Below, one piece after another: positions 24,863 to 29,078 of a DNA stretch of 64,000 nt. The stretch lies in NCBI GenBank assembly GCA_016190505.1, contig JACPQM010000002.1, positions 1-64,000 on the forward strand. Reading direction: 5' to 3'. The position numbers and the translations under genes are program-made. The stretch is from Chloroflexota bacterium (lineage in GTDB: Bacteria; Chloroflexota; Dehalococcoidia; JACPQK01). The number at the start of each line of letters is the position of its first letter. The stretch's first letter is position 1. Under the pieces are notes generated by a model, which was not told where the DNA came from, did not search any database, and saw only the letters and a program-made list of their open reading frames with translations.

Positions 24863-25159
24863 TCACATTATGCCTTCCTCGATCATCCTGCGGATCTTCG
24901 CTTCGTAGTCAGCGGCGCTCATCGGGCATTGCACCAAAGCATCGAATTCCCAAGGAGTGAGCCGGCACTGGTTAACCACCTTGCTGAGAGTCCCTGGCCT
25001 GATGTCGCCGGAGTGGCCGTGCGGCAGAGTAAGCCTGTGGGTCTTCCTGCCATCAACCGTATACCAGGCGTTCCGTTCACTGCCGGAGCGGAAGTCAAGG
25101 CCGAGCTTGTGCTCGTAGGCCCGAGTTACTTCTCGATAGCTATGCACCAGCTTGGACAT
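24863..25159 (-). CDS. HicA/YcfA-like putative toxin
   Basis: 98 residues. The segment RNAWYTVDGRKTHRLTLPHG followed by GTLSKVVNQCRLTPWEFDALV resembles the double-stranded-RNA-binding-like core of HicA interferases (histidine then GTL..I..Q..L...EF). It starts within the last 20 bases of the upstream gene, as toxin-antitoxin partners often do. A divergent member or a non-toxic homologue is possible. Confidence 0.55.
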   Translation of the reverse strand: MSKLVHSYREVTRAYEHKLGLDFRSGSERNAWYTVDGRKTHRLTLPHGHSGDIRPGTLSKVVNQCRLTPWEFDALVQCPMSAADYEAKIRRMIEEGIM

Positions 25160-25586
25160 GGGCGGGCTCGATCAGGCGCGAAAGGGTTCTCAGCCAGGCC
25201 CTGGGCAACCGACCGAGCGTCCTTCGGTCAGCACTTTTAAGGTCTTCGTATAGCGACACTACTTCCTTCTTCAGGCAAGAGAGTGCTTCGCTCACAGTCT
25301 TGCCACTGGCAAACGCTTCTAGCTCAGGCCAGCTAGCGATCACTTCTTCCGCATGCTCTTCAATGGTTACTTGGACAGGTGATTTGAGAACGTGCTTGTC
25401 CGAGTTCAAATCAGTGATCATGGCCTGAGTCACTGTAGGTTTCTCTTTAAGGTCAGCGCAGACCGCTTCGAGCCGCCGCTCTAGGGCACCAACGCGCTTG
25501 GACAACCCGTGGACCTGTTCAGTCAACCTATCAAGCGCTTCTGGTAGACCCGTTGTTGTTATTGGCCAGGGCTCCTGCTGTTCCAC
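25140..25586 (-). CDS. HicB-like antitoxin domain with N-terminal coiled coil
   Basis: 148 residues. Residues 15-50 (LPEALDRLTEQVHGLSKRVGALERRLEAV) predict a coiled coil. Residues 58-140 (LNSDKHVLKSPVQVTIEEHAEEVIASWPELEAFASGKTVSEAL...) resemble the HicB-like/partial RNase H fold that partners HicA-type toxins. It overlaps the 24863-25159 gene. The coiled coil could multimerise the complex. Confidence 0.55.
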   Translation of the reverse strand: MEQQEPWPITTTGLPEALDRLTEQVHGLSKRVGALERRLEAVCADLKEKPTVTQAMITDLNSDKHVLKSPVQVTIEEHAEEVIASWPELEAFASGKTVSEALSCLKKEVVSLYEDLKSADRRTLGRLPRAWLRTLSRLIEPAHVQAGA

Positions 25587-25648: not shown

Positions 25649-27730
25649 TCAAGCCTTTCGGGCGCGGACCAGGATGCCCTTGAGGTGAGGGATGCCTGTC
25701 ACCGGGTCACGGTGCTGGGTGGAGGTCAGCTCATTGACGTTGGCTTCGGCCCAGCCATGGGGTATGGAGATGACCCCGGGCATGATGTCCACCGACGTCT
25801 TCAGGCGTAGCTTGATGGCAGCATGCTGGCTCTCAACCTCGACCATGTCCCCGTCGGCCAAACCCTGCTCGCGGGCAGTGTCCGGGTGTACTGTAGCCAC
25901 GGGCTCGGGAGCGCGGGCACGTAGCTTCTGTATCTCCCGCATCTGGGAGTGGCTGAACTGGGCCTCGCGGTCACCGCTTACCAGGATCAACGGGTATTCC
26001 TTGAACACACCTGGAGCGGTCACTGGGCTGACAGTCGGCTCGTAGTAGGTGGGCATGGGGTGGTAGCCCAGCTTCTCCAGGGTATCCGAATAGAGCTCGA
26101 TCTTCTGGGAGGGGGTAGGGAAGGGCTTGGAGCCAAGGGCTTCCTGGCCATACTTGGTCTCCCCATACAAAAGGCCGTGGGTGGGCATGGCCCGCATCTT
26201 CTCCGTGGACAGGTTCATGTCCTTGACTTCGTAGTCCACGTATTCTTCTTCGGTGCGCCACGGGAAGTAGTTCCCGTAGCCCATGCGCTGGGCCAGAGTG
26301 GTCCAGAACTTGAACTCGGACCAGCACTCGCCGGGCGGCTCCACCACTTTCGGGCGCAGACAGAGGTAGGGGATTCCCTGAGTCACCGCGTAGCTATAGC
26401 CCAGGCCCGTCTTCTCCAGGAAGGTGGCTGCGGGCAGCACAATATGGGCGAGCTTGGCGGTCTCGGTCATGCGGACGTCCATGACCACGAACATCTCCAG
26501 CTTTTGGAAAGCCTCCCTGAAGCGCTGGCTGTCGGCCTGGGTGAGGACGAAGTTGCCAGCGTTGAGGAATACCATCTCTATGGGATAGGGCTTTCCGTCC
26601 AGAATGGCGTTGGGCAGCGAGATGCCCTGGCCCTCGCCGAAGTTGCGGCCCCAGAGCTCCCAGTGGATGGGGTAGTCCTCTGTCCCCACGGGTTGGCCTT
26701 CGGGCAGGGGGTAGTCAAGTCTGGGCCAGTAGGGCATAGGCACCCGGATCCAGGACCCCTTGCCGTAGATGCTGCCGGTGATGGTCTGGAGGATGGAGAA
26801 GGCCCTGGAGATCTGGAACCCGGCTTCCTGCTGGCCCAGGGCGCAGGTGCCCTGGATGATGCAGCCGGGCTTCTTGGTGGCAAATGTCCTGGCGACCTCC
26901 CGGATGTCTTCCGCCGAGACCCAGGACAGCTCGGCGGCCCACTCGGGGGTGTACTGCTTGACGTGCTCCACGATCCGGTCGAAGCCCAGGGCATACTTGG
27001 CCACGAACTCCCTGTCATAAAGGCCTTCGGTGACTATGATGTTAATCATGGCCAGGGCGATGGCCAGGTCAGAGCCCGGCCGGGGCTTGAGATGCTTGCC
27101 CTGGTTAGCCAGGGGAATGCGCTTGGGGTTAATGGTAATCAGCTCCGTCCCTGCGCGCACAGCCTCGAGGATGCGACGGGACTTGGGCGGGTCAGAGTGC
27201 GACGGGTTGTGCCCCCACAGCAGTATGGAACCTGCGCCCTCGATGTCTTCGAAGGGGAATCTGCCGAACGTGACCATCCTGGCACGTATCATGTCCGTGT
27301 ATCATATTCCTGGATTCAAGTAGTTGGGGGTGCCGAATACGGCAGCGAAGCGTTGAGACAGGGTCTGGGACTCGCGCTCCTCAGCCCCCAGGGCGCCCAC
27401 TTGGATCGCCACCGCCCGCGGCCCTTCCCTCTCCTTTATCTCGTTCATCTTGGAGATGATGGCGCTAAGGGCCTCGTCCCAGGTTATGCGCTGGAAACCA
27501 TCCCCGACTCGCCGCTGCGGGTAGAGCAGGCGCTCTGGGGCATATTCCCATTCCACGATGCGATTGCCCCGGGGGCAGATTAGCCCCTTGTTCAGGGGGT
27601 GCTCCTTCATCCCCTCCACCTTCACCACGCGCCCGTCCTTCACGTGGGCGTCCAGCCCGCAACTATTGACACAGAGCATGCAGTTGGTCTTGACGATTTC
27701 GTCGGCAGTCACTGGGCTCGCCTGGGGCAT
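25649..27730 (-). CDS. Molybdopterin oxidoreductase (DMSO-reductase family), probable selenoprotein
   Basis: 693 residues if the in-frame TGA at 27304-27302 is read as selenocysteine (residue 143). The N-terminus has the [4Fe-4S] site NCMLCVNSC...GLICPRG. LLWGHNPSHSDPPKSRRI, VFLNAGNFVLTQAD and AHIVLPAATFLEKTGL of the bis-MGD fold follow. The C-terminal cap has HPDTAREQGLADGDMVEVES. The TGA comes after FGTPNYLNPGI and before YTDMIRARMVTFG, the place where family members carry the Ser, Cys or Sec that binds Mo or W. Translation is uninterrupted on both sides. The formate-dehydrogenase U-H pair is absent (U-Y here), so it is not a standard FDH; the substrate is unknown. The ATG at 27730 follows GGGAGGTG. 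Confidence 0.8.
27268..27287 (-). promoter_or_regulatory. SECIS-like hairpin after the in-frame TGA
   Basis: Fourteen bases after the TGA the message reads ACGTGCC-AGGAT-GGTCACGT: a 7-bp stem with one bulged U and a five-base loop that contains GG. Bacterial SECIS elements have this form, with the loop G about 16-37 bases after UGA; here it is 23-24. It is within the coding sequence, as bacterial SECIS elements must be. Confidence 0.55.
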
Positions 27731-27802
27731 ACTGGCACCTCCCGGAAAGGTCAAAGGTAACACTTGGATTATAGCATGAACGGGCACCAAGGCGGCTGCC
27801 AC

Positions 27803-28013: not shown

Positions 28014-29009
28014 CTATGGCCGCGCCGGACCCACCAGGATGTCCTCTCCTCTCACACGTACCGCGTGGTGCACCAGCGGCTCATGCGCCGGTCCGGCCAG
28101 CGCCTCGCCGGTAGCCACACGGAAGCGGGCGCCATGCCAGGGGCAGGTCAATACACCGTCCCGGAGCGGGCCAATGGACAGCGGCGCCTCCGCATGGGGG
28201 CAGGTCTCAGCCAGGGCGTAGAAGCTGCCTGCATCGTTGACCAGCAGCACCCGCTGTCCCCGGTAATGAACTAGCCTGGTGCTGCCTGGTGCCACCTCGT
28301 CGGCGCGGGCCACTCTCCGGTACATACCCCTTTCGGCCTCAGCCAGGGCCGAGCGCATGACCTTAGCTTCAATGGGGCGCAGCTTTTCCAAGGGGGCAAA
28401 GTCTGGCGTCTGATCGTAGGTCGCGGGATCGAAGGTGGCTATGTCCCGCACGAAGTTAGACCGTTGCCCGGTCAGGTCGTTGAGCCGCAGTGGCAGCCGC
28501 ACCATGTCCCCATAACCGGAGACCTCATGGGGGTAGAAGGGAGTCTCGTGGCGCAGGCCGGCCCGGTCCCGCGCCAGCCGCCCGAAGGCCTTGGCCTCGC
28601 GCACCGGAATTGGCTCGGCCAGGGGCAGCACCACGTGGAAGCCCACCGTGGGGAACTCGACCAGGACCTGGTCGGGCTGCACACCAAGGTGTCCCAGGGC
28701 GCTGATCAACGCCTGGACCTGGTCCCGCTTGGCCCGCAGTTCGGGCACGAGCTGCTCCCACGACTGCTTGAGCCGGGGAAATACGTCCATGTCGTACATG
28801 AGGAAGCCGACATTGCCTCCGGCGTCCAGATTGTAGGCGCCGTAGATGTGGGTCTGGTTGACCTGCTCCAGGAAGCGCTCGTAGGTGAAGCCGCCGGGCA
28901 GGGTCCTGAATGAGCCGTCCACCTGCTGTTGAGCGACTGCGTCGGCCCGGCCCCGGTAGCAGCGGACGAAAAGCTCGTAGCGGCGTTTCATCGTTCTGTC
29001 GTTGCTCAT
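28014..29009 (-). CDS. Primase-like (AEP/TOTE-type) domain fused to a Rieske [2Fe-2S] domain
   Basis: 331 residues. Residues ~8-190 resemble the archaeo-eukaryotic primase domain of TOTE conflict systems: RYELFVRCYRGR, then IYGAYNL...VGFLMYDMD with the metal-type D73-x-D75. EFPTVGFHVVLPL follows with H125, then GYGDMVRLPLR. Residues ~230-331 are a clear Rieske domain with Cys270-x-His272 (TCPHAEAPLS) and Cys289-x2-His292 (CPWHGARF). The ATG at 29009 follows GGAAGG. I know of no described role for this pairing. The Rieske call is firm; the primase call is by motif and less sure. Confidence 0.7.
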   Translation of the reverse strand: MSNDRTMKRRYELFVRCYRGRADAVAQQQVDGSFRTLPGGFTYERFLEQVNQTHIYGAYNLDAGGNVGFLMYDMDVFPRLKQSWEQLVPELRAKRDQVQALISALGHLGVQPDQVLVEFPTVGFHVVLPLAEPIPVREAKAFGRLARDRAGLRHETPFYPHEVSGYGDMVRLPLRLNDLTGQRSNFVRDIATFDPATYDQTPDFAPLEKLRPIEAKVMRSALAEAERGMYRRVARADEVAPGSTRLVHYRGQRVLLVNDAGSFYALAETCPHAEAPLSIGPLRDGVLTCPWHGARFRVATGEALAGPAHEPLVHHAVRVRGEDILVGPARP

Positions 29010-29078
29010 AGGTTTTCCTTCCTGCAAATCAGTCTCCGGTGCCAATTGGCGCCCAAGGATCCACCGAAGATGGTCGGC

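Follow-up and report, generated by a model that had tools for sequence, protein, structure and literature searches.

A probable selenocysteine at the metal-ligand position of a Chloroflexota molybdopterin enzyme outside the formate dehydrogenases

Selenocysteine (Sec) has a narrow recorded place in the MopB/DMSO-reductase superfamily. The Sec-containing MopB enzymes in published selenoproteome lists are FdhA and FwdB only, both with a UHxP motif (PMC13188914), and FdhA has been entered under the broad COG0243 in a selenoprotein list (PMC9312934). In a survey of the superfamily acetylene hydratase is listed with Cys, and Sec is confined to FwdB and the formate dehydrogenases (FDHs) (PMC10100899). 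A 64,000-nucleotide stretch of DNA from a Chloroflexota bacterium, called the window here, carries a MopB gene with an in-frame TGA at codon 143 (Table 1). Is this codon read as Sec, is it a genuine stop, or is it a mistake in the sequence? And if it does encode Sec, is the protein anything other than one more FDH?

The first matter is the reading frame. The sequence-only reading described a frame open save for one TGA, and translation gives exactly that: 693 residues with a single internal stop, flanked by FGTPNYLNPGI upstream and YTDMIRARMVTFG downstream. Homology spans the stop. Relatives, at identities of up to 48%, align to residues 7-693, and the region 3' of TGA143 alone has acetylene hydratase as its top match (E 1.5e-71). 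Third-position G+C is 80% on the 5' side of the codon and 83% on the 3' side. What if the TGA is nevertheless a true nonsense mutation, leaving a recent pseudogene or a truncated product of 142 aa? The lack of any further stop or frameshift in 693 codons argues against this, as do the high third-position G+C on either side and the fact that the stop is a TGA placed exactly at the metal ligand. In favour of a nonsense mutation, the gene is without co-located partner genes.

The gene is solitary, and no iron-sulfur or membrane partner subunit was found among the neighbouring ORFs in the window. Its same-strand upstream neighbour (28014-29045, reverse strand) ends in a Rieske [2Fe-2S] domain (61 bits); oddly, this is joined to a domain with a weak likeness to archaeo-eukaryotic primases (PF22548, 25 bits, under the cut-off of 27). 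Downstream are two small adjacent ORFs (24863-25586, reverse strand), and the one of 98 aa has a sub-threshold match to a HicA toxin (17 bits).

Table 1. Features of the MopB gene and its surroundings (positions in the window).
Feature	Position	Strand	Details
MopB catalytic protein gene	25649..27730	-	693 aa with TGA143 taken as Sec; terminal TGA 25651-25649
In-frame TGA, codon 143 (putative Sec143), Mo/W-ligand position	27302..27304	-	Cys in 103/103 homologous places
Shine-Dalgarno-like GGGAGG	27738..27743	-	7 nt 5' of ATG at 27730
N-terminal [4Fe-4S] motif C17-x2-C20-x3-C24-x27-C52-P-R54-G	27575..27682	-	PF04879 match, alignments
bSECIS-type hairpin ACGUGCC-AGGAU-GG(U)CACGU	27268..27287	-	apical loop AGGAU 27280-27276

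The next matter is where the stop falls. The TGA had been assigned to the Mo/W-ligand position, and the alignments agree: codon 143 falls in the column that holds the Cys ligand of W in acetylene hydratase, as well as the ligand of E. coli FdhF (FDH-H) and of the genome's own FdhA. When Cys or Sec was sought at this column, Cys was found in all 103 homologous places (80 TGC, 23 TGT, no other codon) and in every other row of alignment A1, in which the query's Sec143 was written as C. A random stop would be expected at the ligand codon about once in 690. The same column is also the starting point for a rival explanation, namely that a sequencing or assembly error has altered a true TGC or TGT, in which case the enzyme would be one more Cys-type member of its clade. 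All other members have one of these codons, a single base from TGA, and the host genome is a 3.23 Mb draft of 100 contigs that is 85% complete. However, such an error would need to strike about 1 codon in 690, and to do so in a genome with full Sec machinery.

This machinery was looked for in the genome, and selA, selB, selC and selD are all present. selA scores 560 bits, selB 344 bits including frame neighbours (cut-off 242) and selD 377 bits, and selC (tRNA-Sec) has the anticodon TCA. Of the genome's 39 MopB-domain genes, the query and a canonical fdhA of the Sec-His type are the two with an in-frame stop, each time a TGA that occupies the metal-ligand codon. The TGA of fdhA gives CARL-U-HAPT, i.e., U-H-A-P, and is followed after 18 nt by the hairpin GUGGCC-GGUCU-GGCCAC. 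Since FdhA and the query both carry the TGA and the sel genes are present, the host has the coding arrangement for Sec in the MopB superfamily. Two side observations belong here. The selD gene (L018, G000:C61:51255-52175, reverse strand) is itself Sec-containing, with an in-frame TGA in ARCAG-U-AAK and a perfect 9-bp bSECIS-type hairpin, CUGGCGCAG-GUG-CUGCGCCAG, 33 nt after the UGA. In addition, 39 MopB-domain (PF00384) matches are unusually many for a 3.2-Mb draft genome.

Might TGA instead have been reassigned throughout the genome, to Trp for example? Nothing found speaks for this, and its chance is close to nil. TGA terminates three of the ten window genes tested, the query gene included, and this use as a terminator led us to reject reassignment. 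Furthermore, the in-frame TGAs of the MopB set and selD sit at Sec positions, the genome has a tRNA-Sec with anticodon TCA, and no homolog has Trp at the ligand column.

A hairpin of the bSECIS type follows the query's TGA. The bacterial bSECIS model has an apical loop of 3-9 nt with a G in the first two loop positions; this loop lies 16-37 nt downstream of the UGA, and the energy is at most -7.5 kcal/mol (PMC13188914). In the query the AGGAU loop starts 21 nt after the UGA on a stem of 7 bp with one bulge. Its energy is at the limit, about -7.1 to -8.0 kcal/mol, varying with the form of the loop and the flanks; the 20 nt alone give -7.5 kcal/mol, and one flanking base per side brings this to -8.0 kcal/mol. 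The published criteria are permissive when loosely applied. In our implementation 32% of the gene's codons satisfy them, and for this reason they were dropped as stand-alone evidence. A stricter filter, defined with the target already known, passes 4.1% of the 3063 codons examined in genes of the window. Among the 103 Cys homologs one passes at the corresponding place, and when the peptide is recoded synonymously 4.6% of the recodings pass. The 40-66 nt 3' of the TGA, folded in bulk, were no more stable than shuffles (z about 0); the motif-constrained hairpin alone carries information. Because knowledge of the target preceded the filter and the bulk stability is ordinary, the hairpin is taken as moderate support for the Sec reading. 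It also speaks against a sequencing error, being absent from 102 of the 103 Cys homologs.

Sec is the best reading of codon 143 because of the Cys-only column, the sel machinery, the precedent of FdhA in the same genome and the bSECIS-type hairpin. Judged from these lines of evidence, UGA143 is very probably read as Sec, which the sequence-only reading had considered the natural interpretation and which the Cys column and selABCD support. The genome's SelB/tRNA-Sec system would decode it, aided by the downstream hairpin. The main open risk to this reading is that it rests on one gene in one genome. No second Sec member was found among 60 relatives and 80 genome_contigs loci, in two overlapping draws amounting to about 394 genomes of the class, or in 400 genomes of the phylum and 29 of the class of genome G500. 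In the widest of these searches the two best candidates per genome were scored, and the host is the sole member of its order in the genome set. With no other Sec member in the class and phylum samples or in genome_contigs, TGA143 itself is without conservation. Perhaps further genes of this kind are overlooked, because standard annotation truncates them.

What kind of protein does the gene encode? The Pfam domains Molybdop_Fe4S4, Molybdopterin and Molydop_binding score 53, 159 and 85 bits against cut-offs of 22.7, 24 and 26.8, and these three domains together with the metal-ligand column (Ser, Cys, Sec or Asp) place it in the MopB/DMSO-reductase superfamily. In alignments the cluster cysteines 17, 20, 24 and 52 are retained, as are R309, H658 and R54, the last of which lies between the [4Fe-4S] cluster and the pterin. 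The N terminus has no twin-arginine signal, and the protein is probably cytoplasmic. An AlphaFold2 model from a 24-sequence alignment has a mean pLDDT of 90 and a pTM of 0.91. The intact residues and the confidently predicted fold are further points against a nonsense mutation. Among PDB structures the model comes closest to acetylene hydratase (TM 0.89, 30% identity), and next to FDHs, periplasmic nitrate reductase and polysulfide reductase. By sequence, too, acetylene hydratase is the closest of the solved proteins (292 bits, E 7e-86), and the best FDHs reach 193-199 bits. The idea that the query is simply an acetylene hydratase was rejected, because that enzyme has an Asp directly after its second cluster Cys (Asp13 in Pelobacter), where the query has Val21.

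The remaining alternative is that the query is a divergent FdhA and its Sec the ordinary Sec of an FDH. Some observations lean that way. The top NCBIfam model is Fdh-alpha (TIGR01591, 333 bits), R309 is kept and aligns with the Arg of VETVRSL in FDH-H, and one relative lies near fdhD. However, the score is half the cut-off of 666, whereas the genome's own FdhA, the positive control, reaches 865, and the query's Cys relatives are equally low (364-425 bits). The U/C-H-x-P motif is missing, with Tyr in place of His. This residue had been noted in the sequence-only reading, and translation gives U-Y-T-D. In trees of 76 and 40 proteins the query lies inside an otherwise all-Cys clade (SH-aLRT 100) made up of proteins from the same class, the same phylum, Thermodesulfobacteriota and Myxococcota. 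This clade stands apart from FdhF and the genome's FdhA and nearer to acetylene hydratase, and a joint clade of query and FDHs was rejected (p-AU 0.035). With acetylene hydratase also the closest fold, a divergent FdhA is improbable. Model score, tree and closest structure all agree with the earlier placement of the protein outside the FDH group.

The residues around the ligand set the query apart from its own clade. E(-3), R(+2) and R(+4) are invariant around the ligand Cys of the 22 other clade members, none of which has a change at an invariant position within eight columns of the ligand. In the query these residues are Pro140, Thr145 and Met147. This suggests a remodelled active site, and the altered ligand region fits new chemistry accompanying a Cys-to-Sec change. 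It also bears on the two rivals raised earlier. A sequencing or assembly error does not account for three altered ligand neighbours that are found in the query alone, and we regard such an error as unlikely. On the other hand, the query departs at 13 of 86 clade-invariant positions, the highest count of all members, and its branch is the longest of the clade (0.70-0.78). As its overall divergence is also the highest, relaxed selection is another possible source of these changes, and long branch and altered positions are both what a nonsense mutation could yield. Nevertheless, given the intact frame and cluster residues, a pseudogene or truncated product is very unlikely, and Sec remains the preferred reading.

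Clues to function come from relatives. In one Chloroflexota and one Deltaproteobacteria genome (L178 26-7286 and L021 98-10118), one of which is from the group nearest the query in the tree, the MopB protein gene is clustered with genes for HdrA/MvhD-type, NuoF-type and 2Fe-2S subunits. It is possible that these clusters encode an electron-bifurcating complex whose catalytic subunit is uncharacterised. Elsewhere the neighbours are of a different kind. One Cys-type clade member (L181 2678-8034) adjoins TIGR03201 and TIGR03200, following the genes for 6-hydroxycyclohex-1-ene-1-carbonyl-CoA dehydrogenase and 6-oxocyclohex-1-ene-1-carbonyl-CoA hydratase, and another (L024 8004-18050) is near fdhD and bzdQ. 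These neighbours from anaerobic aromatic degradation are possibly a clue to the substrate of the clade. An aromatic-degradation role for the query was not adopted, as the query gene has no such neighbours; its genome has no match to TIGR03200 over the cut-off. More generally, the partner genes of the relatives suggest low-potential redox enzymes of anaerobic carbon metabolism.

Since this context comes from relatives and TIGR03200 has no match over the cut-off, the commitment is limited: the query is probably a Sec-ligated Mo/W-bisPGD enzyme with a redox function and a substrate other than formate. In the mechanism we propose, two pyranopterin guanine dinucleotides would hold a Mo or W ion beside one [4Fe-4S] cluster, and selenium would be the ligand that the protein contributes to this metal. 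The reaction would most likely be a low-potential two-electron (or hydration-type) conversion of an organic substrate other than formate, with electrons passing via the cluster to a separate partner. The enzyme falls in a MopB lineage on the acetylene hydratase side whose other known members are all Cys-type. Either a Cys-to-Sec change took place inside this lineage, or Sec-bearing relatives are unsampled. A change from Cys to Sec would follow a known general trend (PMC1794560).

Why would this matter? FdhA and FwdB are both C1 (formate/CO2) enzymes with U-H-x-P (PMC13188914, PMC10100899). If the reading is true, Sec in a separate, otherwise all-Cys clade uncouples selenium ligation from formate/CO2 chemistry in the superfamily. 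Cys and Sec forms of the clade would, moreover, be a natural pair in which to compare what selenium does at Mo or W. This is of interest for acetylene hydratase, for which selenium was calculated to bring a gain, whereas almost none was seen in model complexes (PMC11220754). The query probably contains selenium, although its branch was previously known in Cys forms only. We lean, with some reserve, towards the fuller claim that it represents a third Mo/W-bisPGD selenoenzyme lineage besides FdhA and FwdB, derived from a Cys type, with a remodelled active site and a substrate that is not formate or CO2.

How does the query compare with the known systems? It shares with FdhA and FDH-H the MopB fold, the [4Fe-4S] cluster, a (predicted) Sec at the metal-ligand column and the UGA with its bSECIS. 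However, those enzymes have U-H-x-P where the query has U-Y, and the query lies outside their clade. Sec forms are also known for one more MopB protein, FwdB (PMC13188914), but its family motif is UHxP, and no Fwd model was among the NCBIfam matches listed for the query. The acetylene hydratase of Pelobacter acetylenicus (PDB 2e7z) is like the query in having one [4Fe-4S] cluster, has its W-ligand Cys at the column of codon 143, and is the closest solved structure both by sequence and by fold; the query gene for its part stands alone in the window. The two differ in the ligand (Cys rather than the predicted Sec) and in the Asp of CQSCD (Val21 in the query), and several supported branches lie between them in the trees. 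The query's relatives in the uncharacterised all-Cys MopB clade (L160, L161, L101, L021, L172 and others) have 42-48% identity to it over the full length. They combine a ligand Cys with E-3, R+2 and R+4, whereas the query would combine Sec with Pro, Thr and Met.
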